Assembly: GCA_030433135.1 (NCBI GenBank)
Contig: JAUILF010000018.1
Coordinates: 1 to 32,646, forward strand
DNA from: Bacteroidia bacterium
GTDB taxonomy: Bacteria; Bacteroidota; Bacteroidia; Chitinophagales; Saprospiraceae
Direction: 5' to 3'
DNA length: 32,646 nucleotides
The notes under the pieces are model-generated. The model saw only the letters and a program-made list of their open reading frames with translations, ran no database searches and was not told the origin of the DNA. Below, one piece after another: positions 8,213-26,038 of the stretch (within the stretch, counting starts at the first letter, position 1; each line of letters starts with the position of its first letter). The position numbers were made by a program, and so were the translations under genes.

Positions 8213-10183
8213 ATGCTAAATAGATGGAATGACCAGGAAGCCTCAAAACTGGAAGGAGACCTACTAAAACTACGCGTATACACATCTCGACTTCAAGGAC
8301 AAGATCCTGATCTCGTATTACATGGGGGAGGTAACACCTCGGTAAAGATTAAGGAAACCAATGTGTTTGGTGAAGAAGAAGAAATCCTATATGTAAAGGG
8401 AAGTGGCTGGGATCTGGCTACCATCGAAACAGCCGGATTCGCTCCAGTTAAACTGAGCCGCCTGCTGCAGATGGCCGACCTCGATGAACTTACCGATCTG
8501 GATATGGTAAAGTACCAAAGAACTGCCATGACCAATCCTTCAGCACCAAATCCGTCTGTTGAAGCCATTTTGCACGCCATCATTCCATTTACATTTGTGG
8601 ATCATACACATGCTGATGCTGTGGTGACCATCAGCAACACGCCGGGAGGAGAAGAAAGGATCAGAGAGATCTATGGGAAACATATGCTCATTGTTCCATA
8701 CGTCATGCCGGGCTTTATTCTCGCAAAAGAAATATACAACCTCACCAGGGACTTTGACTGGAACAAGGTGGAAGGTATGATCCTGCTCAATCATGGAATT
8801 TTTACTTTCCACGATGATCCCAAAGTTAGTTATGACCGAATGATCAGTAATGTGAGCCTGGCAGAATCCTACCTGGCCAGTAAGGGAATTGAAGCCCTAT
8901 CAGAAGAAGAGGGTGCAAATGCCAACCTGGAGCAATTGGCCCGGTTTAGAAAACACGTGAGTGAAGCCATGAAAAAGCCGACCCTCTGCCGACTAAACCA
9001 GGATCAGCAAGCTGTGGCTTTTTCAAACCTGGATGAAGTGGATTCGATCATAGAACGGGGACCGCTCACTCCGGATCACATCATCCGAACCAAGAGAACT
9101 CCAATCATGTTGGGGAAGGACCCCGAAGCTCGTTTAAGTCGCTATATTCAGTCCTACCAGAACTACTTTGAAAAAAATACTCCCGGAGACCTCACGCAGC
9201 TTGACCCGGCACCGCGCTGGGGTGTTTGGCCAGGTGTCGGGACGGTATCTATCGGACCAACGGTTAAGCACGTTAGGATTATTGAGGACATCACTGCTCA
9301 TACCATGAAGTCAATCCACCAGGCAGAACAGTTGGGTGGCTGGGTAGCACTACCCGAAAAAGATCTTTTTGAAATGGAGTACTGGAGCCTCGAGCAGGAA
9401 AAATTGAAGAAGGGGGGCAAACCTCCGGCTATGCAAGGCAAAGTAGCTTTGGTCACCGGGGCTGCCAGTGGTATTGGAAAAGCCTGTGTCGATGAATTAT
9501 TATCGCAAGGCGCGGTCGTTACCGCCCTGGACATTAGTGCCGATATCACTTCCGTTTTTGATACCGGCCAGGTATTACCACTGGTTTGTGACGTGACCAG
9601 TGAGGAGCAAATGAAAGATGCCATAGAGAAAACGATCATTCATTTTGGAGGTCTGGACATGCTCATAACCAATGCAGGTATATTCCCTAAAAGCCTGTAC
9701 ATCAAAGATATGAGCGATTCTACCTGGAGTAAAAGTCTAGATATTAACCTGACCAGTCATCAACGTTTGTTCCAGTTAGCCAAACCATACCTTGATGAAG
9801 GTATTGATCCGGCTATAGTAATTATGGGATCAAAAAATGTACCGGCACCGGGACCAGGAGCAAGTGCCTATTCAGTGGCCAAAGCTGGTTTGACGCAATT
9901 GGGAAGAGTTGCGGCTATGGAGTTTGGAGGAGATGGTATCAGGGTCAATATATTACATCCTAATGCCGTCTACGATACCGCGATCTGGACGGATGAAGTA
10001 CTTCAGGCCAGGGCTGATCACTACGGTCTGACCGTAGAGGAGTATAAGACCAACAACATTCTCAAAACGGAGGTAACTTCCGTCGATGTAGCCCGGATGG
10101 CCGTAGCCATGCTCGGACCCGTCTTTTCTAAAACGACCGGCGCACAAGTTCCGATCGACGGTGGAAATGAACGAATCATTTAG
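8213..10183 (+). CDS. Bifunctional class II aldolase / short-chain dehydrogenase fusion
   Basis: This 656-residue fusion has an N-terminal class II aldolase/adducin domain (about 15-260) and a C-terminal SDR domain (about 405-656). The aldolase part shows the phosphate loop LHGGGNTSVK (36-45), metal ligands His131 and His133 in DHTHADAV and His194 in LLNHGIF. The SDR part shows the NAD(P)-binding TGAASGIG (415-422), a LITNAGIF segment, and catalytic YSVAK with Tyr553 and Lys557. The arrangement matches the RhaD/YuxG-type fusions, in which the lyase splits a ketose 1-phosphate (L-rhamnulose 1-phosphate in the best known case) and the SDR oxidises the aldehyde released. No rhamnose isomerase or kinase gene is in the window, so the sugar is open. 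It is about 190 bp after the lectin gene, with a 46-bp gap before the cytochrome/DUF1549 gene. Confidence 0.9.
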   Translation: MLNRWNDQEASKLEGDLLKLRVYTSRLQGQDPDLVLHGGGNTSVKIKETNVFGEEEEILYVKGSGWDLATIETAGFAPVKLSRLLQMADLDELTDLDMVKYQRTAMTNPSAPNPSVEAILHAIIPFTFVDHTHADAVVTISNTPGGEERIREIYGKHMLIVPYVMPGFILAKEIYNLTRDFDWNKVEGMILLNHGIFTFHDDPKVSYDRMISNVSLAESYLASKGIEALSEEEGANANLEQLARFRKHVSEAMKKPTLCRLNQDQQAVAFSNLDEVDSIIERGPLTPDHIIRTKRTPIMLGKDPEARLSRYIQSYQNYFEKNTPGDLTQLDPAPRWGVWPGVGTVSIGPTVKHVRIIEDITAHTMKSIHQAEQLGGWVALPEKDLFEMEYWSLEQEKLKKGGKPPAMQGKVALVTGAASGIGKACVDELLSQGAVVTALDISADITSVFDTGQVLPLVCDVTSEEQMKDAIEKTIIHFGGLDMLITNAGIFPKSLYIKDMSDSTWSKSLDINLTSHQRLFQLAKPYLDEGIDPAIVIMGSKNVPAPGPGASAYSVAKAGLTQLGRVAAMEFGGDGIRVNILHPNAVYDTAIWTDEVLQARADHYGLTVEEYKTNNILKTEVTSVDVARMAVAMLGPVFSKTTGAQVPIDGGNERII

Positions 10184-10229: not shown

Positions 10230-13200
10230 GTGAACGCTAACGCATCCAAAGGAATACTGTGGCCAGTGTGTCTGCTGGGTATTGTTTTGCTTATGGTATC
10301 CTCATGCGGCAATCCTGATCAGGCCCAGGTTCTTCCACAAAAGGTTGACTTCAATTATCATATCAAACCGATACTTTCTGATCGTTGTTTTGCCTGTCAC
10401 GGACCTGATGAAAACACCCGGGAAGCCGAATTAGCGCTACACACGCAGGAGGGTTTGTTCAACTTGCTGGATAGTGCCGAAAGTCTTTATGTGGTACGTC
10501 CCGGAGATCCGGATCACAGCGCTTTATTCCAGCGTATCATCTCTCATGATCCTGACTTTCAGATGCCTCCACCGGCTGCTAATCTGAGTGTATCTGAGTA
10601 TGAAATCGATCTTATCGCCAGGTGGATTGATCAGGGTGCAGAATGGAAGAAACACTGGTCCTTTATCCCACCGGGTGATGTATCTGTTCCAGATATCGCC
10701 AAGAAGGATTTCGTAATCAATGAGATAGATCAATTTGTTTTACAAAAACAACGTGAGCATAAACTCAGACCATCAGAGACCGAATTGCCAGAGAAGTTGC
10801 TACGACGCGTCTACTTCGATTTGATTGGTTTGCCACCTCCCGTTGAAATATTGGAGTCTTTTACTCAAAATCCCAGTGATTCAGCGTACGAAGCCGTGGT
10901 GGACCAACTCCTCGAAAACCCCAAATATGGTGAAAGGATGGCATCAGTCTGGCTCGATGTGGCCAGATATGCTGATTCTCACGGCTACCAGGACGATCGG
11001 CCCCGCACGGTGTGGCCATGGCGCGACTGGGTCATAGATGCCTTTAACGAAAATCTGTCTTATCGCGACTTTGCCACCTGGCAGATCGCAGGAGATTTAC
11101 TTCCCGATGCCCAATATCGACAGAAACTGGCTACTACATTCAACCGAAATCATGCCATCACCCAGGAGGGCGGTGTCATCAATGAAGAATACCTCACAGA
11201 ATACGCGGCAGACAGGGTTCAGACCTTTTCAACGGCATTTCTCGGTCTGACAATGCAATGTGCCCGGTGTCATGACCACAAGTATGACCCCCTTTCGCAG
11301 GAAGAGTACTATGAAATGCTGGGATTTTTCAACAATGTGAAAGACGAAAGGGGACAAATCAGCTACTTCGACCTGGCACCGAAACCCAATCTGATCCTGC
11401 AGGACAGTGGATACATACGGGATATGCAAGCTGTCAGAGAATATATAGATCAGCTGGATAACGAGGTTGCCGGGCTTCCTGATACCGAGAGGGAATATTT
11501 TGAAAGTTGGAAATCAAAGCCACCACCATACGATCCGGGAGTTATTCAACCATATCTACTGGTGGATGCAGATCTGAATGACACAATCGGATGGACCTTC
11601 CATAATAAGGTGCAAAGGGATCATCCCGGAAAAGTCAATGTCAACCTCCCTCCTACTATCGAAAGACCTGAGCGCCATACAGACAGTCATGGTATCCGTT
11701 CGCTGTCGTTTAACGGAAAGAATTTCCTCACCTTCGGAGAGCTGGGAGATTTCGAATACTACGATGACTTTACCCTGGGAGCCCGGATCATGCATACCGG
11801 ACAACATCAAAAAACAGCGACTTTCCTGAGCCGTAGAAATGGAGAGCAAAAAAGGCAGGGATATGACCTTAGTATCAACCCTTCCAATCAGGTCACTTTT
11901 CGCCTGATCCATAATATGAATGACGAATACATTCAGGTGACCACCACTACCCGAATTCCCGGAGGAGTGTGGAAAACAGTGTATGCCTCATATGATGGCT
12001 CCGGGAAGGCATCTGGTATTACCATTTTCTTTGATGGCAACCCACAGCCAGCTTATATCCAGCAGGATAGTCTTCATGAAAAAAGCATCCTTAATGGCAA
12101 CGATTTCATCATTGGAAATTGGAATCACCGTGCCCGGGAATTGTCAGAATTATATGGATTCAAAGGAGGATATACAGATGATGTTAAGCTTTATGACAAG
12201 CAACTAAGTACACTGGATATCAAACACTTATCCGACACAAACACGCAGCCTTCATTCAGTGATTCTGAATGGATGGACCATTATTTAAAACATTATTCGA
12301 TTGTAGCCGGAGACTTGAAGAACAAGCTGGACAGTCTCAGGTCCATAGACCGATCCATACCCAACATTCCAATCATGGAAGAGCGGGACACCATCAATCA
12401 AACCTATTTGTTAGCTCGGGGACAATATGATGCGTATGTCAGGCCTGTTTCACGGGATGTGCCCGTTGCCATCATGGAATTGGAAGACGCAGACTCCATC
12501 AACAGACTGGACCTGGCAAACTGGTTATTCTCGGATAAACATCCTCTTACATCAAGAGTAATGATTAACCGGTTATGGCAGCTTTACTTTGGCCAGGGTC
12601 TGGTCAGCACCCCGGAGGACTTCGGTAACCAGGGTAACTTACCGAGCCACCCCGAACTCCTGGACTGGCTATCTGTCCGGTATAGAGAATCTGGCTGGGA
12701 CACCAAAGCAATGCTGAAGTTGATCGTTATGTCAGGTACCTACAGGCAATCCTCCCGGATCACGGAAGCAAAGAGAAGAAAAGACCCTGACAATATCTAC
12801 CTCGCTCGCGGACCCCGCAAAACCCTGACTGCGGAAATGATCAGGGACCAGGCACTATATACCAGTGGTCTACTTTATGAAAAGATAGGCGGCAAATGGG
12901 TCAAACCCTACCAGCCTGCGGGTATATGGAAGGAAATGGCCAACCAGATAGGAGAAAACAAATACCGGCAAAGTAAGGGAAGGGATCTGTACAGGCGAAG
13001 TCTGTATACCTACTGGAAAAGGACCATTCCTCCCCCGACCATGCTTACTTTTGATGCACCTGAAAGGACTGTTTGTACCGTTAAGAGACAGGAAACCAGC
13101 ACACCATTGCAGGCACTCATCCTGCTCAATGATCCTATTTACCTCGAAGCTTCCAGAGTCCTGGCACATTCCTATCTCTCAAATAATTCGGAAAATTCAA

Positions 13201-13448
13201 TTGAGGATATCCTTCCCACGGCATGGAAAAAGATCACATCAAGGAGCCCTAAGCAAATCGAAGTTGAAAAACTATATGCATATTTTTTGGAAATGGAAGA
13301 TCACTACAGTGAAAATACACTCCAGGCTGAGGAGCTTCTCAACGTAGGGGAAAGTCAGCTAAAACCTGTCGGTGCTACTGCAAAATGGGCTGCCCTAACC
13401 ACAGCGATCAGTACTATTTATAATCTTGATGAGTCAAAACATAACTGA
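10230..13448 (+). CDS. Planctomycete-type cytochrome C / DUF1549 / LamG / DUF1553 lipoprotein
   Basis: The start is GTG at 10230, preceded by an AAAGAG purine run; an ATG at 10222 in another frame stops after three codons. The 1072-residue product has a signal peptide with lipobox VSSC (Cys26), so it should be a lipoprotein. A planctomycete-type cytochrome c domain follows with a heme-binding CFACH (53-57). Then come DUF1549 with a second CARCH (344-348) in the conserved [14 protein letters not shown] context, a LamG-like laminin-G fold (about 445-660, likely glycan binding), and DUF1553 (about 740-1010; [18 protein letters not shown], and [12 protein letters not shown]). In related organisms such proteins are coupled with DUF1501 partners and expressed on polysaccharides; their catalytic role is not established. 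The last base overlaps the ATG of the DUF1501 gene. Confidence 0.92.
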
Positions 13449-14920
13449 TGCCACCTGTTGAAGCAAATAAAACATTCGTAGAACACTGTTGTCAGCTTAA
13501 TCGACGGCATTTTCTATCCAAATTGAGTCTGGGACTGGGTAGTATGGCCCTGGGATCACTATTGGGATGTGGAAGCAAAGCACAGACACCCGGTTTGACC
13601 ATGGGTAAAGGCCTACTTGACAGTCCTCATTTTGCTCCCAAAGCTAAACGCATCATCTATCTTTTTCAAAGTGGCGGACCTTCGCAACTGGACCTGTTTG
13701 ATTACAAGCCAACGCTTGCCAAAATGCACGGTGAAGAACTTCCGGCATCGGTGAGGATGGGACAACGTCTTACCGGTATGACTTCCGGGCAGTCGAGCCT
13801 GCCTCTGGCATCTTCGTTCTTTAACTTTAGTCAGCACGGACAGAGTGGAGCATGGGTCAGTGAACTGATGCCGAAAACAGCAGAGATTGTGGATGATCTT
13901 TGTTTTATCAAGAGCATGCACACCGAAGCCATCAATCACGATCCAGCTATCACCTTCTTTCAGACCGGGTCCCAGCAGGCGGGTCGACCCAGCATTGGGT
14001 CCTGGCTGAGTTATGGCCTGGGTTCATCGAATGAAAATCTTCCCAACTTCGTCGTGCTGCTGTCACGTGGTGCCCAACGGCCGCAACCTATCTATTCAAG
14101 GCTTTGGGGCAATGGATTTCTGGCTTCTCTACACCAGGGAGTTCAGTTTCGTTCTGGCAAGGACCCCGTACTGTACTTGCAGAATCCTGAAGGACTGGAT
14201 CGTCAGGGGCGTCGGAAGATGCTGGATCACCTGGAAACACTCAACCGGGAATATCAACATGAATTTGGAGATCCTGAGATCAGTTCTAGAATAGCCCAGT
14301 ATGAAATGGCCTACCGTATGCAGGCCTCTGTTCCTGATGCCATGGATTTGCACGATGAACCGGATGAGGTATTTGAAATGTATGGAGAGGATGCCCGTCG
14401 TCCTGGGAGCTACGCTGCCAATTGTCTCCTGGCCAGAAGACTGGCCGAAAGAGATGTAAAGTTCATTCAACTTTATCATCTGGGATGGGATCAGCATACC
14501 GACCTACCCAGAGAACTTTCATCCCAGTGCAGAGACACGGACCAGGCTTCAGCCGCCCTGATCACCGATCTTAAGCGCAGGGGCATGCTCGAGGACACGT
14601 TGGTTATCTGGGGAGGTGAGTTTGGCAGAACCAATTATTCGCAGGGTAAGCTTACGGCAGATAACTATGGGAGGGATCACCACCCTCGTTGCTTTACCAT
14701 CTGGATGGCAGGAGCCGGTGTTAAACCAGGAACAAGCTTCGGTACGACAGATGAATTTGGCTACAACATTGTCGAAAATCCGGTACATGTTCACGACTTT
14801 CAGGCAACGTTACTTCACCTTGCCGGAATTGATCATGAAAAACTTACCTTCAAGCATCAGGGTCGTCGATACCGTCTGACAGATGTGCACGGCCATGTGG
14901 TCAATGACATACTAACTTAG
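13448..14920 (+). CDS. DUF1501 (alkaline-phosphatase-like fold) exported protein
   Basis: This 490-residue protein has the DUF1501 signature: [18 protein letters not shown] (71-88), [23 protein letters not shown] near 165, and [10 protein letters not shown] (389-398), with a later DHHP. DUF1501 is related to the sulfatase/alkaline phosphatase superfamily. The leader contains a twin-arginine pair (NRRHFLSK, Arg19-Arg20) and a hydrophobic segment ending LLGC (Cys41), consistent with Tat export and possible lipidation. Its ATG overlaps the stop of the preceding DUF1549/DUF1553 gene by one base (TGATG), so the two are coupled, as is usual for this pair. A ThuA lipoprotein gene follows after 19 bp. 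Enzymatic role and substrate are unknown. Confidence 0.93.
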
Positions 14921-14939
14921 CTTAACCATACTTACCTAA

Positions 14940-15950
14940 ATGACTTATTTACAAAAAGATACAGGTTTTTACTCTACTGTTATTTTTCTTTTTTTGGGAC
15001 TCCTGGCGTCTTGTTCATCAAGTCCTGAAACATCCAATGAAACTCAAGAAGAGGAGGCAGAAACCTTAAAAATTGTGTTTGTTACGGGTGATGAAGAATA
15101 CCGTTCCGAAGAGTCCATGCCGATGCTGGCCCGGATCATACAGCGGGAACTCGATTGTGAAGTTGCTATCTGTTATTCACTGGATTCCGCAGGATATATT
15201 GACCCAAACAACATCAATGACATCAGTGGCCTTTCTGATCTGGAAGACGCGGATCTGATGGTGATGTTCACACGGTTCAGGGCGTTACCTGATGATCAGC
15301 TTCAGATGATCACTGATTATGCAGAGTCAGGCAGGCCGATGGTTGGTTTCCGGACGTCAACTCATGCCTTTCGATATGAGGATGACACTACTAAAGTCTT
15401 CTACAATGAACAGTGGCCCATCCAGGTTTTTGGTCAGAAGTGGATTACCCACCACGGGCATTTTGCCGATGGTCATGGTCACTTAACCTCGGTAAAAGTG
15501 CTACCTGAAAAATCCGGTCATCCCATTCTGCAAGGCGTCACTGATTTTGAAGCCTACAGTTGGTTGTACCATGTAGACGGTGGTGACTATACACTCTATG
15601 GCGATAGTGATCCTTTGCTCGAAGGCACTTCACTGCGATCCAATCACCAGGAAAATGACCGGCTCGATCAGTTTCCACTAACCAATCCGGTTGCCTGGAC
15701 CAAAACCTATACTGGCGCATCGGGTGAAAGTGCCCGGGTATTCTTTACCACCCTGGGACATCCTTATGATTTTAAAGAAGAATCCATGCGCAAGCTGGCA
15801 TTAAACGGTATGTACTGGGCTCTGGGGTTGGAAGAGGACATTCCCTCCGGAGGCGTCACCGCTGATATCCAGGGAGAGTACGACCCCAACAATTCCGGCT
15901 TTGGAGAAAAATTCAAGAAGAATCTGGAGCCGGTAATGATGGCTAATTAG
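14940..15950 (+). CDS. ThuA-domain lipoprotein
   Basis: This 336-residue protein starts with a signal peptide and lipobox LLASC (Cys25). Residues about 43-300 are a ThuA (trehalose-utilisation-like, class I glutamine amidotransferase fold) domain: KIVFVTGDEEYRSEESMPML (44-63), LMVMFTRFRALPDDQLQ, HAFRYEDD, ITHHGHFADGHGHLTSV and FFTTLGHPYDFKEESMRKLALNGMYWAL at the end. ThuA domains are frequent in glycan-catabolic loci of Bacteroidota and Planctomycetes; recent work links some to 3-keto-glycoside processing, but activity here is not shown. It is the last gene of the plus-strand operon. Its final codons and stop (ATG GCT AAT TAG) lie inside the octamer-repeat array that follows, so its C-terminus may have been reset by the repeat. 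Confidence 0.88.
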   Translation: MTYLQKDTGFYSTVIFLFLGLLASCSSSPETSNETQEEEAETLKIVFVTGDEEYRSEESMPMLARIIQRELDCEVAICYSLDSAGYIDPNNINDISGLSDLEDADLMVMFTRFRALPDDQLQMITDYAESGRPMVGFRTSTHAFRYEDDTTKVFYNEQWPIQVFGQKWITHHGHFADGHGHLTSVKVLPEKSGHPILQGVTDFEAYSWLYHVDGGDYTLYGDSDPLLEGTSLRSNHQENDRLDQFPLTNPVAWTKTYTGASGESARVFFTTLGHPYDFKEESMRKLALNGMYWALGLEEDIPSGGVTADIQGEYDPNNSGFGEKFKKNLEPVMMAN

Positions 15951-16648: not shown

Positions 16649-17479
16649 TTATGATAGTCTAAGATTCGTAAATGTCTTGACTTGTTCGGTAATGGCAATT
16701 TCCGTAGGCAGACGCTCCATGCTACTGGCACCGTAAAAGCCAACCACACCCTTGCAGTTATCGAGGATGTAAGCTGCATCATCAGGCATGGCGATTGGCC
16801 CTCCGTGACAGAGCACTAGGATATCTTCGCGAATAGCTTTGGCAGCATCAACCATGTCTTGAATTTCTGGGACACAATCTTCCAGTGACTTGGCTGTCTT
16901 TGCTCCTATGGTACCCGATGTAGTAAGACCCATATGACAAACAATGATATCGGCACCCGCCCGGGTCATAGCTTCAGCATCTTCAACACTAAATACATAG
17001 GGAGTGGTAAGGAGATCCATATCATTCGCAATGCTGACCATCTCAACCTCCAGGTTATAACTCATTCCCGTCTCTTCCAGATTTGCCCGGAACACACCGT
17101 CTATGAGGCCAACCGTAGGGAAGTTCTGAATACCGGCAAACCCCTGGTCTTTCAACTGTCTGAGAAAGTTGGGTGTACTGATAAAAGGGTCAGTACCATT
17201 TACCCCGGCGAGAACCGGTGTATCTTTTACTACCGGGAGCACCTCCCTCCCCATTTCCACGACAATTTCATTGGCATTTCCATAGGCCAGCAGACCGGCT
17301 AACGAACCACGTCCGGCCATTCTATAACGGCCAGAGTTATAAATAACGATGAGATCGATACCTCCGGCTTCTTCACATTTTGCAGAAATCCCGGTACCGG
17401 CCCCTCCACCTACAATCGGTTTTCCTTCGCTTACCTTTTTTCTAAATGAATCTATTATTTGTGCTCGGTTCCAGGTCAT
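16649..17479 (-). CDS. PEP-hydrolase-like TIM-barrel protein, copy B
   Basis: This 276-residue protein is in the same family as copy A (6196-7056), though clearly divergent. It has [19 protein letters not shown] (22-40), [20 protein letters not shown] (176-195), [20 protein letters not shown] (220-239) and [11 protein letters not shown] (250-260). The paired His motifs (CHMGLT and CHGGP) correspond to FHAGTT and AHGAA of copy A. It also has VNGTDPF (93-99), standing for the NANDP of copy A. It follows the UPF0261 gene by 31 bp and precedes the cupin by 7 bp, so it is in one operon. The order UPF0261 then TIM barrel equals the domain order of plant Tm-1, whereas module A has the reverse order. 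Members have an unproven biochemical role. Confidence 0.88.
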
Positions 17480-17510: not shown

Positions 17511-18710
17511 TCAAATTAAAGCAATTTCACGAAAACCTTTTGCAACCTCTGCTGCAAATGATGGATCGTTGATATCCAGAGGGAGCCGCACTATTTTTCT
17601 GTCGTCAGTTTGCACAACCAATTCCTCCAGGGAATCAAAGAGTGCCCGGTCAGCTTCAGGATCGTAAAAATACTGTCCTTCGGTACTCAATGACGAGACG
17701 CCCTTTTCCGGTATGTATAGTCTGACTGGTGCTGACACTCGATTGATCTTTTCCGCAATCCAGGATGCCATCAATTTGTTTTCATCAGGAGTTGTGCGCA
17801 TCAGTGTCACCTGCGGATTATGTTCATACAACAGCCGGTACTTATATTTTTCAGGGATAGTCTCCTTAGCGCCGAAGTTGACCATATCCAGCGCTCCCAG
17901 AGAAAGCACATAAGGAATGTTTGCCTCGATAATGGCTTCCATCCGCTCTTCTCCAGCACTCATGACACCCCCCATATGTAAATCACAGATTTCTGTAGTA
18001 GTCATATCGAGCACGTAGGGCATCAACCCGGACGACACCAGTTTTTCCATGGAACGACCACCGGTACCGGTTGCGTGAAAAACCAGGCACTCATAGTCTT
18101 TTTCCAGAAGCTGTCGGAGTTCTGTAACACAAGGAGTAGTCACACCAAACATGGTCAACCCCAACACAGGCTTTTCCACGTCATATTTGGGCACCTGGTT
18201 ATTGATCATTCCTGCCAACGCATGTGCAGCATTTGCCAGAATCACATTGGACACCTGGTTTATCCCTGCAACATCCGTCACCGAATACATCATGCAGATA
18301 TCACTCGCGCCTACATAAGGGGCTACCTGTCCGGATGCCACTGTAGACACCATCACTTTAGGTATCCCAATGGGCAATTGTTGCATTCCGCTGCAGATGA
18401 TGGCAGTTCCTCCCGAACCTCCCAGGCCAATCACTCCGGCAACATTTCCAGCAGTAGCCATGAATGCAGCCAGGGCATCGGTCATACAGCCAACTGCATC
18501 ACCTCTACCATCATTGTTTTCCAGAAAATCGCTTCGTTCCGGATGCTTCTTTGCCACTTCTGATGCCGCAATATCTACCGGATGATCATGTTTCGTGGTA
18601 GAAACATCCAGAATTTTATGTGGCACCGCACACTGCTTCAGCCGATCAGATACAAATTTGATCTCTTGCCATTTGGTATCGCAAGTTCCAATAATAAATG
18701 TTTCAGCCAT
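17511..18710 (-). CDS. UPF0261 / Tm-1-like ATP-binding protein, copy B
   Basis: This 399-residue protein is the more canonical of the two UPF0261 copies. It shows IIGTCDTKWQEIKFV (6-20), GLGGSGGTA (95-103), GIPKVMVSTVASGQVAPYVG (115-134), VFHATGTGGRSMEKL (210-224), LDMVNFGA (274-281), PEKGVSSLS (334-342), FYDPEADRALFDSL (348-361) and LDINDPSFA (378-386). The phosphate-binding-like glycine loops match those of copy A. It is placed 3 bp after the stop of the giant ThuA/dehydrogenase lipoprotein gene and 31 bp before the TIM-barrel gene, so all three should be cotranscribed. No signal peptide is seen; action is cytoplasmic. The role in bacteria is unknown; in tomato the family member Tm-1 binds ATP and inhibits viral replicase. 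Confidence 0.9.
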   Translation of the reverse strand: MAETFIIGTCDTKWQEIKFVSDRLKQCAVPHKILDVSTTKHDHPVDIAASEVAKKHPERSDFLENNDGRGDAVGCMTDALAAFMATAGNVAGVIGLGGSGGTAIICSGMQQLPIGIPKVMVSTVASGQVAPYVGASDICMMYSVTDVAGINQVSNVILANAAHALAGMINNQVPKYDVEKPVLGLTMFGVTTPCVTELRQLLEKDYECLVFHATGTGGRSMEKLVSSGLMPYVLDMTTTEICDLHMGGVMSAGEERMEAIIEANIPYVLSLGALDMVNFGAKETIPEKYKYRLLYEHNPQVTLMRTTPDENKLMASWIAEKINRVSAPVRLYIPEKGVSSLSTEGQYFYDPEADRALFDSLEELVVQTDDRKIVRLPLDINDPSFAAEVAKGFREIALI

Positions 18711-18713
18711 AAC

Positions 18714-21700
18714 CTATAGCGTTTCAGCAATCACCGAGATGGTACCGTTCATTGTCCTCCAGTGACCGGGGAAAGTACAAACATAGATGTATTCTCCGGG
18801 CTCTGCAGGGACTTCCCATACCAGTTCCACCGTATCACCCGGATCTACCAAACCCGTAAACATGATGACGCCCTCGGCTTCCGGGACATACTCCCTGGTG
18901 GCGCCTTCCGGAGTCTGTGCCATCTCATCTGCGGCGGTCCCGATCACTTCCAGGCTTCCAGGCTCTCCCAGGATGAAGTTATGCTGCATACCATCATTGT
19001 TCGAAAAAACAAATCTGATTGTCTCGCCGGCTGTAACCGTTAGTTCCTCCAGGTCGTAGCGCATCTGATCCGGCACCGTACTGAGTTGTATCACCCTTCC
19101 TTCAACTCCAGAGTCAGCCAAACTATTGGTCACCCTGCTTGCTTCAGGTCCATAGTTTTTCAGAAAGAGATCCTCGATACTCATCCCTTCGGCAAAAACC
19201 GACCGGTTCGGAAAGAACTGTTCCTCCACTTTATATAACCATTGTCCCGACAAGTCCACATTTTCTGAACCCACTTCAAGAAACACCTCGTCCATCTGAC
19301 CATACATACCTCCACGGCCACCCGAATCAGATATCCTTACCGCTAATACATTTTCACCGGCTTTCAGCAAACCTGCAGGTACTCTGTATACCCGTGTTCC
19401 ATTCCAATCCCTTTCCGTAGCACCGATCAACTGCCCGTTTAAATAAGTCTCATCTGTATCATCAATCGGTCCCAGATGAAGCATCACCCGATTCCCCGTT
19501 AATCCATCCACAGAAAAAGTGGTTCGTGTCCATATAACACCATCAAAGTTTGTGAACAACGGAATGCCGGTCTCGTTCCACCGTGATGGAACCTTGATGG
19601 ACTTCCAATCACTATCATCCAGATCTTCTCCCGACCAATCTACCTCGACTTGCTCATCCTGGTACCCTGCTGCTACTTTTTTTGCATTGGCGTTGTATAG
19701 TGCCCGGACATAGGCATCTTTATGTTGCACTGCCACTGCATAAACTGCCCTCGATAGCCATTCATCTTGCTGAACCATATTATCCTGACTGAGACGATAC
19801 AGGAGTTCGCCCACTCCTGCCACGTTATTCAGATCACCCACCATGATAATCGATGCCAGCCTGGTGCCTGGATCCTCATCAGCAAACATCCTGTTGCGAA
19901 GCAGAAGTCTGTAATTGCTCTCAGTAGGAGCCAGAACCCGAACTGCATTCTTCCTGACCGCAGCCGATGGGTGTCTGAGTGCACCAGCCACTGCTTCTAT
20001 TACATCCTGGTTTTCATCATTGATCAGATCCAGTCCATGCAAAGTCCACAAAGCATGGATAGCAGCCGTATTCAGACCAATTTCATCCACATCTGTATTG
20101 GCCAACATCGCCAGCAACTCATCTTTAACACTCAGATCTCCACTTTCGACCAGGAGCCTTTGAGCATGGAGGCGCCAGAGCATATTGGTATGTTTCAAGG
20201 CATCTATTCTGCCCTGCGTACTACTTAGATCGGGAGTAGCTCTGTTTTCCGCCTCTGTATGGACCAGCCGGTATATCCTGCCATGCTGACGGTCGCGCAG
20301 GGGGTTTACGTGGGCATTTCCGGGTCCATTTTCAAAGCCTTCAGGTGTAGGATTATGCTGAATGATAAAATTGTACCAGTCAATCACCCAAACCGCCCCG
20401 TCAGGCCCCACCTGGGCATGTACCGGTGAAACCCATTCATCACTACTGGCAAGCAGGTTCCATCCGTCCACCTCCCGGTATCCGGCTCCCTCGGGTTCGA
20501 GAATGGATCTGTGCAGCAGATGGCCTGTAGGTTCACAAACCAGGGCTATCCTGTTCCAATACTCCATAGGATAATTACGGGCCGTGTACAGATGATGTCC
20601 TGCAGCTGCCGTAAAACCCCCAAAAACATCGACCTGCCGAAAATTGGCGGTATTGGGATGAAAGGAATAATGTCCATCTATCTTCTTTACACTTTCGACT
20701 TTTAATCCTTCAACCCCTTTAAAAGTACGATCCGGGATTCCAAGAAAAGCGGAATGTGTATTGTTGGCCGTTGAAATAAACACGTCAAAGTCCTCCGAAA
20801 AACCCAAACCCCAGGTGTTGTTAGAGGTTGACCCCATAAACTCCAGTTTTTCACCATCAGGGGTAAATCTATAGGCACCTTGCCTGAACTCAAAGGATTC
20901 ATCTCCGACCTTTCCTTCAAATCCCGAATAGCCCAGCACACCCCATATCCGGTTATCAAATCCGTATTGCAAATTTGAGGGTCCTGCATGAGTGTCAAAA
21001 GTTCCCCACCCCTCTATGATCACTTCCGTAATATCTGCCCGGTCATCACCGGTAGTGTCCTTGAGAAAAAGAAAGTAAGGTGCTTGCGAAACGATGACAC
21101 CTCCGTTTGCAAACAAAAGACTCGTGGGTACACTGAGGCTGTCGGCAAAAACCGTGAACTTGTCAGCTTTTCCATCTCCATCGGTATCTTCCAAAATCTT
21201 GATCCGATCCGATCCAATGCCATAGTCACTTTTGATCTCATTGGGGTAATCCTTGGTTTCAAGAATCCACAAACGTCCTCGCTCATCCCAAGCCATACTG
21301 ATAGGATTAAAAATGTCCGGATCAGATGCAAACAGTTCCAGTCGGAAACCATTTGGTATCTGAATTCGCTGCATAGATTGCTCAGGTGATAAGGGAGCCT
21401 GTAGCAATGGTGGTGGATCCCTTTTTTCATAGTTGGGAATTTTCGCAGGACTGTAGGTCAATTCCGGCAAGGCCAGGGAATCCAGCGCCTGCTTTTTGTT
21501 TTCACCAATAGCCCACAACAGACCCCCTTCTATTAATCCGAGGAACTCTGTCTTATTCCAGGTTCGTTCATCGTGACCCAAAGCGGTATAAAATACACGT
21601 CCTTTTCCATACTCCTTCACCCAGGTGTAAGGTTCGTGATGATCACCCTCTACCCTTTCCATTAAAACCTCGATATCACCAGCCATATTGGTATGTACAT

Positions 21701-22211
21701 AGGTCTCATCCCAACTGGTAAATGGTGTAAATCCTCCGAGAGCTGGATGTTCCGGTCTAACAACAACAGCTTCAAAAGTGGCGGTATCGTGAGAGGTAAA
21801 CTGTCCTCCGATCAGGTCAACAACATCATCTGAGTTTCTAAAACAATAACTGGCAGAATGGATCGGCAAGAAAGCACCGCCGTCATCGACAAAGTTTAGC
21901 AATGCTTCCTCCTGATCCGTGGTTACTTCATCATGATTGGCATATAGGATTAGTGCATCAAATCCCTGCAGGTTGTCAGCGTTCAGATCGTCCGGGTCCT
22001 CCGTATAGGTCATGTAAATTCCTTGTGGTGCAAGGTGTCTTTGCAATAAAGGAGCATAAACAGCCGAATTATGGTGTTCACTATCATGCCCAAGAAAAAG
22101 GACTTGGATTGGTCTGGGAGCTACACTTTCAGGTTCCGTTGAACACTGCCAAAGGGCTAATATAAGCAGCAGCATTCCTGCCCACTGAAGAGGCTTTAGT
22201 AATGATCTCAT
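18714..22211 (-). CDS. Giant ThuA / PVC-type dehydrogenase / HEAT / jelly-roll / cupredoxin lipoprotein
   Basis: The start is set at the ATG at 22211, preceded by GAGAAG, which gives 1165 residues. A 22-residue longer form would bury the signal peptide. The leader ends in LALWQC, a lipobox. Domains in order: ThuA (about 35-265; VLFLGHDSEHHNS, FYTALGHDERTW); a membrane-bound dehydrogenase-type beta-propeller (about 300-680; IQIPNGFRLELFASDP, WDERGRLWI, TDGDGKADKFTVF, NNTWGLGF); HEAT repeats (about 690-860); a galactose-binding-like jelly roll (about 885-1040; VPSRWNETG, YLNGQLIG); and a cupredoxin (about 1060-1165). Type 1 copper ligands are visible: His1077 (QHNF), Cys1145, His1150 and Met1154, with the C-x4-H-x3-M spacing of azurin. 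No CxxCH is present, though many relatives of this family carry a C-terminal cytochrome c. It heads module B, divergent from the amino-sugar operon. Confidence 0.88.
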   Translation of the reverse strand: MRSLLKPLQWAGMLLLILALWQCSTEPESVAPRPIQVLFLGHDSEHHNSAVYAPLLQRHLAPQGIYMTYTEDPDDLNADNLQGFDALILYANHDEVTTDQEEALLNFVDDGGAFLPIHSASYCFRNSDDVVDLIGGQFTSHDTATFEAVVVRPEHPALGGFTPFTSWDETYVHTNMAGDIEVLMERVEGDHHEPYTWVKEYGKGRVFYTALGHDERTWNKTEFLGLIEGGLLWAIGENKKQALDSLALPELTYSPAKIPNYEKRDPPPLLQAPLSPEQSMQRIQIPNGFRLELFASDPDIFNPISMAWDERGRLWILETKDYPNEIKSDYGIGSDRIKILEDTDGDGKADKFTVFADSLSVPTSLLFANGGVIVSQAPYFLFLKDTTGDDRADITEVIIEGWGTFDTHAGPSNLQYGFDNRIWGVLGYSGFEGKVGDESFEFRQGAYRFTPDGEKLEFMGSTSNNTWGLGFSEDFDVFISTANNTHSAFLGIPDRTFKGVEGLKVESVKKIDGHYSFHPNTANFRQVDVFGGFTAAAGHHLYTARNYPMEYWNRIALVCEPTGHLLHRSILEPEGAGYREVDGWNLLASSDEWVSPVHAQVGPDGAVWVIDWYNFIIQHNPTPEGFENGPGNAHVNPLRDRQHGRIYRLVHTEAENRATPDLSSTQGRIDALKHTNMLWRLHAQRLLVESGDLSVKDELLAMLANTDVDEIGLNTAAIHALWTLHGLDLINDENQDVIEAVAGALRHPSAAVRKNAVRVLAPTESNYRLLLRNRMFADEDPGTRLASIIMVGDLNNVAGVGELLYRLSQDNMVQQDEWLSRAVYAVAVQHKDAYVRALYNANAKKVAAGYQDEQVEVDWSGEDLDDSDWKSIKVPSRWNETGIPLFTNFDGVIWTRTTFSVDGLTGNRVMLHLGPIDDTDETYLNGQLIGATERDWNGTRVYRVPAGLLKAGENVLAVRISDSGGRGGMYGQMDEVFLEVGSENVDLSGQWLYKVEEQFFPNRSVFAEGMSIEDLFLKNYGPEASRVTNSLADSGVEGRVIQLSTVPDQMRYDLEELTVTAGETIRFVFSNNDGMQHNFILGEPGSLEVIGTAADEMAQTPEGATREYVPEAEGVIMFTGLVDPGDTVELVWEVPAEPGEYIYVCTFPGHWRTMNGTISVIAETL

Positions 22212-22269: not shown

Positions 22270-22289
22270 TTATGCAATCAATTGCATAA
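22270..22289. promoter_or_regulatory. 20-bp perfect palindrome, candidate operator in divergent region
   Basis: TTATGCAATCAATTGCATAA consists of two 9-bp arms with a 2-bp spacer. It lies between the divergent starts at 22211 and 22345. The core TGCAAT-N2-ATTGCA resembles operators of LacI-family and similar dimeric regulators, though the usual central CG is CA here. No regulator gene is in the window. Confidence 0.55.
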
Positions 22290-22344
22290 AATTAAAATAG
22301 GTATGGCAAGAAGATCCTTTTATATTGTAAAAAAATTAAAAATT

Positions 22345-23073
22345 ATGAACACAAAGATCCTTTCGGATTCACAGAGTCTGGGAAGTGAAGCAGGAAAGTT
22401 TGCCGTTGCTATCCTTCAGGCTGCCATCGAAACCAAAGGCCATGCCAATGTCATCCTGGCCACAGGAGCCAGTCAATTTGCGATTTTAGAGACACTGGTA
22501 GATACAGATATCGATTGGAATAAGGTCACTATGTTTCACCTGGATGAATATATTGATCTGCCTGAGGACCATCCTGCCAGTTTTCGCAAGTACCTAAAGG
22601 AACGTTTTCTGGAAAAAATCGAATATGCATGTGAATACCATTTGATAGATGGTAACAAAGATCCCGAAGAAGAATGTGAGAGGGTCAGTAGTTTAATCAG
22701 TAAACATCCGATTGACCTGGCTCTGATAGGCATTGGCGAAAACGGTCACCTGGCTTTTAATGACCCACCGGCTGATTTTGAAACTGAGCAGCCCTACATC
22801 GTTGTCCAGTTGGATGAAGCCTGCCGCAATCAGCAGTATGGAGAAGGCTGGTTTGACAGTCTCGCGGATGTACCTGCCAAAGCTATATCGATGAGCATCA
22901 AGCAGATCCTCAAAAGTAAAGTCCTGGTTGTTTCAGTGCCTGACGAACGGAAGGCAAAAGCCGTAGCTGAGGCAATCAATGGACCTCTTACCAATGAGTG
23001 TCCTGCCTCGATCTTGCGTACCCATACAGATTGTCATCTGTTTCTTGATAAGAACTCTGCATCCCTACTCTAA
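22345..23073 (+). CDS. nagB: Glucosamine-6-phosphate deaminase family protein (NagB-like)
   Basis: From the ATG at 22345 the protein is 243 residues. An upstream ATG at 22267 would start inside the palindromic operator region, so it is not used. It belongs to the NagB family: ILATGASQF (37-45) is the phosphate-binding loop, VTMFHLDEY (61-69) carries the catalytic Asp67, and GIGENGHLAFNDPP (129-142) carries His135. Asp141 of E. coli NagB is Asn133 here, and Glu148 is Asp140, so kinetics or substrate may differ. GlcN6P deaminases turn glucosamine 6-phosphate into fructose 6-phosphate and ammonia. The stop overlaps the start of the symporter gene by one base (TAATG). It is the first gene of a three-gene operon with the SSS transporter and NagA. 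The family is firm; the exact substrate is an inference. Confidence 0.82.
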   Translation: MNTKILSDSQSLGSEAGKFAVAILQAAIETKGHANVILATGASQFAILETLVDTDIDWNKVTMFHLDEYIDLPEDHPASFRKYLKERFLEKIEYACEYHLIDGNKDPEEECERVSSLISKHPIDLALIGIGENGHLAFNDPPADFETEQPYIVVQLDEACRNQQYGEGWFDSLADVPAKAISMSIKQILKSKVLVVSVPDERKAKAVAEAINGPLTNECPASILRTHTDCHLFLDKNSASLL

Positions 23074-24731
23074 TGTCAGTATTAGATACAACAATCCTGA
23101 TCACCTACTTTCTTGGAATCACAGCATACGGTCTCTGGATTTCTCGTAATACCAAATCGAGTGACGGGTATTTTCGCGGTGGTCGAAAATTCAAGTGGTG
23201 GACCATGATGGGTCAGGCATTTGGCACCGGAACCCATGCCGAAATGCCGGTTGCACAAGCAGGTGCCTCATTCCAGGGTGGGTTTGCCACTATCTGGTAC
23301 CAATGGAAAAACCTTTTGATCACTCCGTTTTACTGGCTGATTGCCCCCTGGTACAGAAGGAGCGAAAGAACTACCGTGGCTGAAATGGTACGTGATCGCT
23401 ATGGCACCAGAATGGGTATGCTGTACACCATTTTTGCCATATTATTCTTTGTCTTTATCATGGGCTCCATGTTGCAAGGGGCAGCCAAAGTCATTTCGGT
23501 TGCGACCGGAGGCATGGTTTCCTCAAACTGGGTAGTCGTCGGTATGACCATAGCATTTATTGTTTACAGCTATTTTGGCGGCCTGGTTGCGGCAGCCCAT
23601 ACCGAGTTTATCCAGGGGTTGTTGATCATCGTCCTGTCTTTTCTGTTAATACCAGCCGGGCTGAATGAAGTAGGTGGATATGATACCATGAAAGATTTAC
23701 TACCGGAAGACTTCTTCAACCTTTATGACCAGGCATATGGAGTTGGTGGTTTTACCATTGCCATGTTGGCCATAAATGGGATCGTGGGAGTGACGGCTCA
23801 GCCACATATGATGTCCATGTTTGCCAGTGGTAATTCTGAAATGGCGGGCAGAATTGGCCAGACCTATGGCAATTTCGTAAAACGTTTTGTAACCCTGGGT
23901 TGGACCTTTACGGGAATGATTGTAGCAGCAGTGGTTATCGTGAAAGGGGTAGAACTGGAGGATCCGGAGTATGCATTTGGATATGCCACGAGATTACTAC
24001 TGGCCCCTGGATTGGTTGGTCTCATGGTAGCCTGTATTCTTGCAGCTAATATGTCATCATGTTCCAATTTTATGGTAAACCTGGGTGCCCTTTTTGCTAA
24101 AGACATCTACCAGCCTTATATCAAACCCGAAGCCACTGATAAGGAAGTACTGAGGACCGGTCGTCTTTCTGGCCTGGTCTTTACATTAGCTGGAGTTGCT
24201 TTTGCTCTCTCCATCAAGAATGTGTTGAGCGCTTTCCTGTTTACCGAAACCATTGCAGCTTTTATGGGGATCATGATCTTTGGCGGAACGTTGTGGAAGA
24301 GAGCTAATCGTCACGGAGCCCTGGCAGCCATCTTAATCTCATTCATAGTATATTATACAATTAACTATATCAATACCAACGAAATAGCTCTCGTTTACTC
24401 CTGGAAAGCTTTACCCTTTGCATGGGCTATGTTGGCAGGGTTTTCCGCCCTAATCATTGTGAGTTTGGCCACCAGACCTGAATCGACTGAAAGAATTTCA
24501 CTCTACTTTGACCGTTTGGACAAACCTGCCTCTGACGATCTCAAAGCCGATGGAAAACCTGAGGCAAACACCGGTAAGTCATTGATACTTGTTGATGTAG
24601 GTAGCTGGTTTCAGAAAGAAAGATGGAGACACTTCTTTACCCGGTACAAAGAAGACTGGCTGGGTTTCTTGCTGGCATGGCTTTTCGTCCTGGTATTGGT
24701 GTTGATAGCCTGGGGCATACTTCAGATCTAG
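23073..24731 (+). CDS. Sodium:solute symporter (SSS family)
   Basis: This 552-residue polytopic inner-membrane protein starts at the ATG that overlaps the NagB-like stop. It shows SSS features: ITYFLGITAYGLWISRN (TM1), SSDGYFRGGRKFKWWTMMGQ (29-48), GTGTHAEMPVAQAG, a TVAEMVRDRYG segment, and about 13 hydrophobic helices. The central part (GIVGVTAQPHMMSMFASGNSE) corresponds to the region that lines the substrate and Na+ path. A short cytoplasmic stretch (about 475-520) precedes the last helix. Placed between amino-sugar genes, it most likely imports the substrate of that pathway or a related carbohydrate by Na+ cotransport. The NagA-like gene starts 8 bp after its stop. Confidence 0.92.
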   Translation: MSVLDTTILITYFLGITAYGLWISRNTKSSDGYFRGGRKFKWWTMMGQAFGTGTHAEMPVAQAGASFQGGFATIWYQWKNLLITPFYWLIAPWYRRSERTTVAEMVRDRYGTRMGMLYTIFAILFFVFIMGSMLQGAAKVISVATGGMVSSNWVVVGMTIAFIVYSYFGGLVAAAHTEFIQGLLIIVLSFLLIPAGLNEVGGYDTMKDLLPEDFFNLYDQAYGVGGFTIAMLAINGIVGVTAQPHMMSMFASGNSEMAGRIGQTYGNFVKRFVTLGWTFTGMIVAAVVIVKGVELEDPEYAFGYATRLLLAPGLVGLMVACILAANMSSCSNFMVNLGALFAKDIYQPYIKPEATDKEVLRTGRLSGLVFTLAGVAFALSIKNVLSAFLFTETIAAFMGIMIFGGTLWKRANRHGALAAILISFIVYYTINYINTNEIALVYSWKALPFAWAMLAGFSALIIVSLATRPESTERISLYFDRLDKPASDDLKADGKPEANTGKSLILVDVGSWFQKERWRHFFTRYKEDWLGFLLAWLFVLVLVLIAWGILQI

Positions 24732-24739
24732 AAAACGAT

Positions 24740-26038
24740 ATGAATACATCTTTTGTAATCAAGGACGCTAAACTCGTTACCCCTAAGGGCATCTTTCCCG
24801 GAGACCTAAGAGTAGATAACGGAAACATCATTGAGCTATCAGGCAATATAGATGCTGGTAACCTGGCCTGTTACCAGGCAGCAGGTGCTTATCTCCTTCC
24901 CGGCTTTGTGGACATTCACAATCATGGAGCTGCCGGATGGGATTTCTCTTTTGGAACTTACGACCAACAGACAGGTGAGTTCAAAAAAGACAAAACGAGC
25001 TTCTTTGCGGGTTTGGAAAATGCCTTACAGCAATATCTCAATAGTGGCTGTACCTCAGTACTGCTAACAACCATGGCTGCACCTCTTGAAGGTCTGTTAG
25101 AATCCATTGAATACCTCAATGGATTTCTCGATGAAAACCCTGAGTACGAGAATCTCGTTGCAGGTATCAACATTGAAGGTACTTTTCTCAAGGATCCTCA
25201 ATTCGCAGGCGCCCAAAATCCTGACTACTTCCTGGAATTGAAATCCGAAACGATAGAAGCACTGATTGATGCATGCCAGGGCAGATTGAGGATCATGAAC
25301 ATACCTCCTGAGCAGGGTCCGGCGGCTTTGCCCCTCATCGAGAATCTGGTCGATCGAAATATTACTGTCGCCGGAGGCCATACCGGATCTTATGCAGATC
25401 AGTTTGTGGATGCAGTCAGTGCGGGGTTGAGTCTCGCTGTTCACTTCCTCAATGGCCCCTCGCGATCCAGTACCAAGAGCTTTCAGGGTGGAGGAGCAGA
25501 AGAAGCCATTCTGCGGTCTGATGATGTGCTGGTGGAGATCATTGCAGACGGGTATCATGTGGGCCGGGATCATGTCCGGGATATCATAGCACGAAAAGAA
25601 GACAGCCGGGTGGTCATTATTACAGACAGTATGTTTGCGACCGGATTGAATGATCTCCGTTCGTTTACCCTACTCGGACTTCATGGAGAGGTGAGCGACA
25701 ACCGGGAATACCTCCGGCAAGTGGGTAAGGACTCCCTTTTTGGAAGTGTCCTGACCATGCAAAAAGCCTTTGAAAATACCGTGTCCTGGTTAACAATAGA
25801 GATGACAGGGGTGTGGCAACGCCAGCACGATCAAGTAGATCTGGAATCTGCCATCTGTATAGCCTCTAAAATGTGCAGTGCCAATCCTTCCGGAATGATC
25901 CGTGGCCAGGAAAAGCTTCATGGTCAATTGATCCCCGGGGATCAGGCCAACCTGATTCTGGCATCAATCGACAAACAAGACGAGTCTGTTCAAATGGATA
26001 TCAAACAAGTGTGGTTGGGAGGAAGGGAGGTCAGTTAG
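24740..26038 (+). CDS. nagA: N-acetylglucosamine-6-phosphate deacetylase (NagA family)
   Basis: The ATG at 24740 gives 432 residues; a longer frame would overlap the symporter gene for over 100 bp. It is an amidohydrolase-superfamily TIM barrel. Metal and catalytic residues: FVDIHNHGAAG with His60 and His62 (57-66), NIEGTFL with Glu147, GGHTGS with His214, VHFLNG with His235, DGYHV with His273, and IITDSMF with the catalytic Asp296. Known members remove the acetyl group of GlcNAc-6-phosphate. Here it pairs with the NagB-like deaminase and an Na+ symporter, suggesting import and degradation of N-acetylated amino sugar, though no kinase gene is seen. The usual GINIEGPFL reads GINIEGTFL. The convergent enoyl-CoA isomerase gene ends 56 bp downstream. 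Confidence 0.9.
   Translation: MNTSFVIKDAKLVTPKGIFPGDLRVDNGNIIELSGNIDAGNLACYQAAGAYLLPGFVDIHNHGAAGWDFSFGTYDQQTGEFKKDKTSFFAGLENALQQYLNSGCTSVLLTTMAAPLEGLLESIEYLNGFLDENPEYENLVAGINIEGTFLKDPQFAGAQNPDYFLELKSETIEALIDACQGRLRIMNIPPEQGPAALPLIENLVDRNITVAGGHTGSYADQFVDAVSAGLSLAVHFLNGPSRSSTKSFQGGGAEEAILRSDDVLVEIIADGYHVGRDHVRDIIARKEDSRVVIITDSMFATGLNDLRSFTLLGLHGEVSDNREYLRQVGKDSLFGSVLTMQKAFENTVSWLTIEMTGVWQRQHDQVDLESAICIASKMCSANPSGMIRGQEKLHGQLIPGDQANLILASIDKQDESVQMDIKQVWLGGREVS

Follow-up and report, generated by a model that had tools for sequence, protein, structure and literature searches.

The window analysed here is the whole 32,646-nucleotide stretch of contig JAUILF010000018.1 (assembly GCA_030433135.1, Saprospiraceae). 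The gene under study, hereafter the copper gene, lies on its minus strand as a frame running from an ATG at 22211 to a stop at 18714 (Table 1). By eye, a signal-peptide-like stretch directly follows this ATG, with a TTG at 22277 on the same strand as a possible alternative start, and the residue at position −1 of the probable lipobox is Gln, which is unusual. A preliminary description made from the sequence alone had read the frame as a lipoprotein combining a ThuA domain, a dehydrogenase-type propeller, HEAT repeats, a jelly roll and a cupredoxin, and Pfam, TIGR02604 and structural matches support this architecture as real. Pfam boundaries were obtained for ThuA, the DUF7133 propeller and Copper-bind, while HEAT_2 (residues 744–801, 4.9e-5) stayed below its cut-off, and the full-length predicted model had a mean pLDDT (predicted local distance difference test) of 89.5 and a pTM (predicted template modelling) score of 0.77. 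The ThuA domain scored 129.7 bits against a Pfam cut-off of 33.4, structurally resembled 4jqs (Z 22.3) and 1t0b (Z 22.1), and carried histidines 47, 118, 141, 173 and 213 that are invariant in 54 of 54 orthologue rows; the propeller scored 254.7 bits with TIGR02604, over the cut-off of 122.2. The C-terminal cytochrome c of the TIGR02604 definition is absent from the protein, which, as the preliminary description had noted, contains no CxxCH anywhere in its 1165 residues and has four cysteines in all.

Table 1. Features of the copper gene and its neighbours in the window
Feature	Position	Strand	Basis or remark
Whole gene, ThuA-propeller-HEAT-jelly roll-cupredoxin, lipoprotein-like, 1165 amino acids	18714..22211	−	Open reading frame and domain matches
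Signal peptide with probable lipobox Cys23	22143..22211	−	By eye; Cys kept in 48/54 orthologue rows
ThuA, residues 37–234	21510..22103	−	Pfam PF06283, 2.3e-37
Six-bladed propeller DUF7133/PF23500/TIGR02604, residues 275–652	20256..21389	−	Pfam, 1.3e-119
Helical HEAT-like region, residues ~665–848	19668..20219	−	Helices in model
Jelly roll, residues ~855–1002	19206..19649	−	Like accessory domain of CE20/sialate O-acetylesterases
Cupredoxin, residues ~1038–1160; putative ligands H1077, C1145, H1150, M1154	18732..19100	−	Pfam Copper-bind and structure matches
UPF0261 (Tm-1-like N-terminal family) gene	17511..18710	−	ATG 3 nt past copper-gene stop
PEP_hydrolase-like gene	16649..17479	−	31 nt after UPF0261
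NagB-like gene (glucosamine-6-phosphate deaminase family)	22303..23073	+	Below all cut-offs; divergent from copper gene
Sodium:solute symporter	23073..24731	+	Domain scan
NagA-like amidohydrolase	24623..26038	+	1.4e-41, below cut-off; true start probably after 24731

The C-terminal domain matched Copper-bind over residues 1048–1160 (1.7e-9, over the Pfam cut-off), and the four residues H1077, C1145, H1150 and M1154, spaced as in azurin, were confirmed in the sequence. The histidine at 1077 is kept in all 54 aligned orthologues, and the Cys, His and Met in 51 of the 51 rows that reach them, three being gapped; because of this conservation and a sequence match to auracyanin A at 3.7e-17, the ligands are not a product of chance. 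The predicted model of the isolated domain (pLDDT 95.2) gave auracyanins as its best fold matches, with Z scores of 18.2 (6kol), 18.0 and 17.7, against 16.2 and below for azurins. By its predicted fold and its four ligands the domain is a type 1 (blue) copper cupredoxin, predicted to bind copper and to be redox-active, and among cupredoxins of known structure it is closest in sequence and fold to auracyanin. The earlier label of an azurin-like cupredoxin is therefore corrected to auracyanin-like. An azurin identity was rejected, as the azurin model TIGR02695 gave 35.9 bits against a cut-off of 105.1 and auracyanin is closer. Auracyanins A and B of Chloroflexus and the Roseiflexus auracyanin (2aan, 1qhq, 6kol) have the cupredoxin fold and the His-Cys-His-Met ligands in common with the window protein; unlike them, the cupredoxin of the window's clade forms part of a ThuA-propeller protein or is the product of a gene next to one. 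According to PMC8552683, alternative complex III (ACIII) of Roseiflexus hands electrons to auracyanin in photosynthesis.

The architecture recurs widely. Orthologues were found in all five other same-genus genomes searched, at 61–64% identity in four and 48% in G005, the copy of G004 ending at a contig end before the Cys, and nine of 40 genomes, the window's own included, matched some part of the protein at E 1e-50. A scan of 84,980 species gave at least 579 matches, of which the best 80 form the set of named loci, a choice that leans towards the ThuA-propeller-cupredoxin architecture. These three domains occur in one frame in 75 of the 80, isolates included, with the C-x4-H-x3-M spacing in 74 (L073 runs off its contig), the remaining five loci, L117, L123, L124, L129 and L139, being broken or cut. 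Nearly all hosts are Bacteroidota, the exceptions being Paraglaciecola and one metagenome-assembled genome labelled Gemmatimonadetes; the host families are Saprospiraceae, Flavobacteriaceae, Cyclobacteriaceae, Chitinophagaceae and Sphingobacteriaceae. PF23500 propellers with any tail were found in seven of 118 genomes of a phylum sample (E 1e-20) and in 16 of 296 genomes of a class sample (1e-40, at most six candidates being scored per genome), and a ThuA-propeller query found matches at 1e-80 in 37 of 195 genomes from another class of the phylum. In the sampled genomes the distribution of PF23500 and ThuA-propeller proteins is broad but patchy, the PVC-type propeller proteins occurring in a minority of the Bacteroidota sampled, with up to 19 places in a single genome, that of the window.

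The jelly roll is less constant than its neighbours in the chain. It matches accessory domains of solved sialate O-acetylesterases and CE20 enzymes (7kmm, 5.8e-29; 9ega, 2.4e-21), superposing on 9ega at Z 22.7 and 1.4 Å over 143 residues with 33% identity. BLAST found it in 19 of the 75 full-length named relatives; others have CARDB, a Laminin_G-like domain or no named domain at that position. It is therefore an optional module and not essential, and we rejected it as a constant sugar-binding part.

How the cupredoxin relates to the cytochrome c tail of other PVC-type proteins was surveyed, with less bias than in the named loci, in PF23500 matches from the class and phylum samples and the window's own genome (18 of its 19 places, C112:35-532 being left out), after removal of the frames whose local propeller score did not exceed 40 (L056, which has a CxxCH, and L247). 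Among 78 propeller frames, 13 had a cupredoxin, 55 (53 whole, two cut) had a CxxCH after the propeller, ten (seven whole, three cut) had neither and none had both, the ThuA and cupredoxin profiles having been built from the copper clade, so that remote domains may be missed. The seven whole tail-less frames include a 147-residue fragment and L244, in which a cupredoxin is the next gene. The ThuA profile matched all 13 cupredoxin frames and none of the 55 CxxCH frames, and Pfam found no ThuA in six CxxCH-bearing members checked. The 19 places of the window's own genome comprise two with a cupredoxin, ten with a CxxCH, two long frames with neither and five partial ones. In an unrooted tree of 76 propellers, the 13 cupredoxin frames and the split L244 form one clade (support 100/99), which adjoins a clade of 24 CxxCH and five tail-less frames (joint support 92/66).

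Further arrangements appeared in another class of the phylum, where 40 of 48 listed places were classified with the clade's own profiles: 19 were ThuA-propeller-cupredoxin (type A, as in the window), 11 propeller-cupredoxin-ThuA (type B), one propeller-cupredoxin, four had the cupredoxin as the next gene and one about 1.2 kb further on, one had a CxxCH, two near a contig end had neither and one was broken. In L323 the cupredoxin, called by the clade profile, has its ligands, Pfam naming none at 0.001. The permuted type B, with the cupredoxin before ThuA, also occurs in the window's own genome (G000:C446) and in relatives. A separate cupredoxin gene directly follows the ThuA-propeller gene in L244, L288, L289, L293 and L295 and lies about 1.2 kb beyond it in L294, and the fused forms L290–L292 nest among these split loci in a quick tree (every fourth named locus, quick search, no bootstrap). 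Judged from these sequences, the copper domain acts like an interchangeable module, which may stand at the end of a fused protein, ahead of ThuA within one, or alone as the product of a neighbouring gene.

One locus swaps the two carriers directly. L315 (3352-6291) contains ThuA, DUF7133 and, in place of the cupredoxin, Cytochrom_C (Pfam, 1.7e-10); it is 72.6% identical over 854 residues to the cupredoxin-ended L310, with which it pairs inside the copper clade in the quick tree. This swap, together with the absence of any of the 78 frames carrying both tails, upholds the earlier suggestion that the cupredoxin stands in place of a PVC-type cytochrome c tail, and the alternation and the swap lead us to read the copper domain as an electron carrier. 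The interchange of two unrelated one-electron carriers is best explained by electron transfer, the direct swap being the single case of L315. Two other frames are of interest in their own right: L143 (4336-6876), an 847-residue frame with a weak DUF7133 match (1.2e-6), a C-terminal Copper-bind and no ThuA listed, is perhaps a second, separate copper swap, with an overlapping frame upstream of it, and L142 (5828-8671) combines Lamin Tail Domain stretches, an inner Copper-bind and Por_Secre_tail.

With moderate confidence, we take the window protein for a carbohydrate oxidoreductase that is exported, probably held by a lipid anchor, and relays electrons through its copper tail. The propeller, with ThuA, would have a sugar, an amino sugar or a glycoside as its substrate and would give up electrons, which the auracyanin-like type 1 copper domain would accept singly and hand to the respiratory chain, possibly to alternative complex III or an oxidase, both partner and direction being conjectural. 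The copper tail would thereby fill the role that cytochrome c has at the end of other proteins with a PVC-type propeller. This reading draws on the domain order, the copper ligands, the auracyanin-type predicted fold, the tail alternation, the split and fused forms and the linkage to sugar-type genes; from these we infer redox activity, the direction of electron flow, a substrate and a first electron acceptor in the propeller. With the TIGR02604/PF23500 "PVC-type heme-binding CxxCH" proteins, such as Lac161_ORF7, the window clade has the propeller and HEAT layout and a terminal electron-carrier domain in common; it differs from them in its auracyanin-like cupredoxin in place of cytochrome c, its added ThuA and its clade-specific propeller site residues.

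The gene neighbourhood is of two kinds. In the window, the gaps of 3 and 31 nt suggest that the copper gene is probably co-transcribed with the UPF0261 and PEP_hydrolase genes. Divergently lie the NagB-like, symporter and NagA-like genes, an order seen by eye also in G003, and a promoter scan of the divergent region found one promoter-like site against 1.9 in shuffles. Context was counted over 139 locus entries that represent 138 places (L020 is the window; the named and unnamed sets may overlap, and their flanks differ). Gfo/Idh or xylose-isomerase-like genes without UPF0261/PEP_hydrolase occur in 90 entries, UPF0261/PEP_hydrolase without the former in 31 (30 places), both sets in L315 only and neither in 17. 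Gfo/Idh and xylose-isomerase-like genes stand together in 58 of the 80 named loci and an AraC-type gene in 53. The window gene, although ThuA-first, has the UPF0261/PEP_hydrolase context, which it shares with every whole type B locus (15 of 15); in 11 of these, PEP_hydrolase occurs without UPF0261. A PF01261 (xylose-isomerase-like) gene, missed by the clade's profile, lies 17 kb off at 755-1663 of the window. A second UPF0261/PEP_hydrolase pair is at 4964-7056 on the minus strand. Elsewhere, a small cupin-like gene stands by eye between PEP_hydrolase and the type B gene (L205:5378-5800; L206:2197-2622), and in G002 a HEAT-cytochrome c protein (L061:5384-7000) lies just upstream of a UPF0261/PEP_hydrolase/type B cluster.

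The more frequent context is reminiscent of the Agrobacterium GlycDH operon. There, according to PMC10628242, oxidation of a glycoside at C3 is followed by cleavage through a TIM-barrel eliminase, and a Gfo oxidoreductase then reduces the sugar; that paper describes the last steps as preliminary. Like that operon, most relatives appear to set a sugar oxidoreductase beside sugar-isomerase-like TIM barrels and a Gfo/Idh reductase; by contrast, GlycDH is a flavoenzyme, and the close neighbours of the window copy differ from those of the operon. UPF0261 is called uncharacterised in PMC5028733, and a literature search on UPF0261 and on ThuA with 3-keto found no function.

What the propeller itself does is the point on which the readings part. 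Its top 16 structural matches (Z 23.7–27.2) are pyrroloquinoline quinone (PQQ)- or AA12-type sugar dehydrogenases (3a9g, Z 27.2, 2.9 Å, 288 residues; AA12, 26.9; soluble glucose dehydrogenase sGDH, 25.1), the six-bladed fold being common to the window protein, to PQQ soluble sugar dehydrogenases (GSDH, PF07995) and to AA12 pyranose dehydrogenases. A profile of the wider family (A4) aligned with GSDH in register (95.6%, E 1.1e-8, 210 columns), and the GSDH protein of relative L251 aligned with solved PQQ enzymes and showed their usual motifs. The propeller might then be a quinoprotein holding scavenged PQQ in an altered site, with the copper domain oxidising PQQH2, a reading we consider possible but doubtful. 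The sGDH ligands His144, Arg228, Asn229, Lys377, Arg406 and Arg408 align remotely (14% identity) with Ala409 (His408 adjacent), Asn464, Asn465, Thr562, Ser595 and Val597, the last three positions being presumably those of the PQQ-carboxylate ligands. In this alignment only Asn229 is retained, so that the copper clade appears to have lost most of the PQQ ligands, whereas CxxCH-bearing relatives retain more of them: column 409 is His in 45 of 55, column 595 Arg in 48 and column 464 Arg in 24, compared with Ala at 409 and Ser, Ala or Gly at 595 in all 13 of the survey's copper group. Across 138 clade sequences (L020 counted, the window sequence itself left out), T407-H408-A409, N464-N465-T466-W467, T562, D591, W593, P596, D611, H619 and R645 are conserved in all sequences or all but one; N465 (138/138) and H408, one position from the catalytic His column (137/138, with one X), favour the quinoprotein, and L315 has the site residues of the copper clade. 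Since the clade seems to have a single origin, we count this difference at the site as a single event.

Several findings weigh against our oxidoreductase reading. Other six-bladed propellers (lactonases, DFPase, NHL) follow closely at Z 21.7–22.8, so the fold is no proof of a dehydrogenase; a copper-clade-only profile did not match GSDH significantly (probability 1%); and when the sequences of solved structures in the PDB were searched by profile, mainly WD40 and teneurin propellers came up, with a sugar dehydrogenase no better than E 0.99. The Lys377 position is Thr in 138 of 138 sequences, that of Arg406 is Ser, Ala, Gly, Ile or Val, never Arg, and that of Arg408 is Val, Ile or Thr. PqqC exceeded its cut-off in none of 24 genomes, the window's own included, in a scan without a positive control (0/14 control genomes positive), one weak match appearing in G009, and a Pfam scan of the window protein gave no domain for NAD, flavin or heme. 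The replaced ligands and the PqqC result also speak against the quinoprotein with scavenged PQQ and leave a canonical one unsupported, with the caveat that the alignment is remote. The CxxCH tally, moreover, counts motifs, Pfam naming a cytochrome domain in four of six members checked and not in L220 or L236, and the only tested relative known to us, Lac161_ORF7, is reported as a glycosidase. As to that cytochrome-tailed protein, PMC5342196 describes the purified enzyme as releasing glucose from lactose with a Km of 1.8 mM, which, together with the nearness of the fold to lactonases and the sugar-isomerase-like neighbours, would suit a ThuA/propeller that is a glycoside hydrolase, lyase or eliminase, the copper having a side role such as holding a metal or substrate in one redox state. 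Lactose cleavage as described there fits oxidation-elimination or hydrolysis alike, and the L315 swap, with the finding that either of two unrelated one-electron carriers may occupy the same place, argues for electron transfer, making a hydrolytic role unlikely. A cupredoxin serving copper storage, delivery or sensing recalls a weak match to the copper-resistance protein CopI (8.9e-8, far below the cut-off), but auracyanin is closer in sequence and fold, the domain swaps with cytochrome c and none of the scanned genes of the window (not every frame was covered) was recognisable as a copper-resistance gene, and we regard such a role as very improbable. The source assembly is fragmented (577 contigs), but an assembly chimera or fusion artefact is scarcely credible and was rejected, the architecture being repeated in the same-genus orthologues and in 75 of 80 named loci, some of which come from isolates.

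The oxidoreductase with a copper tail is the reading we favour, but the earlier picture of a built-in acceptor in a self-contained sugar-oxidising machine goes further than these data, as no redox cofactor site ahead of the copper could be confirmed; whatever takes up the electrons first in the propeller is probably not a canonically bound PQQ. As a bolder and decidedly tentative proposal, the ThuA-cupredoxin clade could be a copper-wired carbohydrate oxidoreductase of a new type: a glucose-dehydrogenase-like propeller with its PQQ site replaced by another redox centre or chemistry, an interchangeable copper or heme tail to respiration, and a place upstream of two alternative pathways. The replacement site may comprise the near-invariant H408, N464-N465-T466-W467, T562, D591, W593, D611, H619 and R645, and the pathways may be Gfo/Idh with xylose-isomerase-like enzymes, or UPF0261 with PEP_hydrolase. 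If true, the latter would also place the uncharacterised pair of Tm-1 domains in a metabolic context.

To our knowledge, few PVC-type propeller proteins have a known reaction. A copper-for-heme clade with fused, permuted and split forms and one heme swap amounts to a natural experiment suggesting that the tail is for electrons, which would make the PVC-type propeller proteins redox enzymes, and the copper domains offer small, probably coloured and easily assayed handles for finding substrate and cofactor. The PVC-type propeller proteins were already known; the copper-tailed clade is new and seemingly undescribed as far as searched, a literature search of limited depth having found no publication on a copper-tailed ThuA-propeller clade.

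Elsewhere in the window, genes at 10230-15950 encode in a row a PSCyt1-PSCyt2-PSD1 protein with a Laminin_G-like insert, a DUF1501 protein and a separate ThuA protein; the Pfam name of PSCyt1 is "Planctomycete cytochrome C", although the copper gene has its closest named relatives in Bacteroidota. The frame at 8213-10183 joins Aldolase_II and a short-chain dehydrogenase in one protein, which we take to resemble the rhamnulose-phosphate aldolase/dehydrogenase type, and an L-type (legume-like) lectin protein (7278-8021) lies between catabolic genes.

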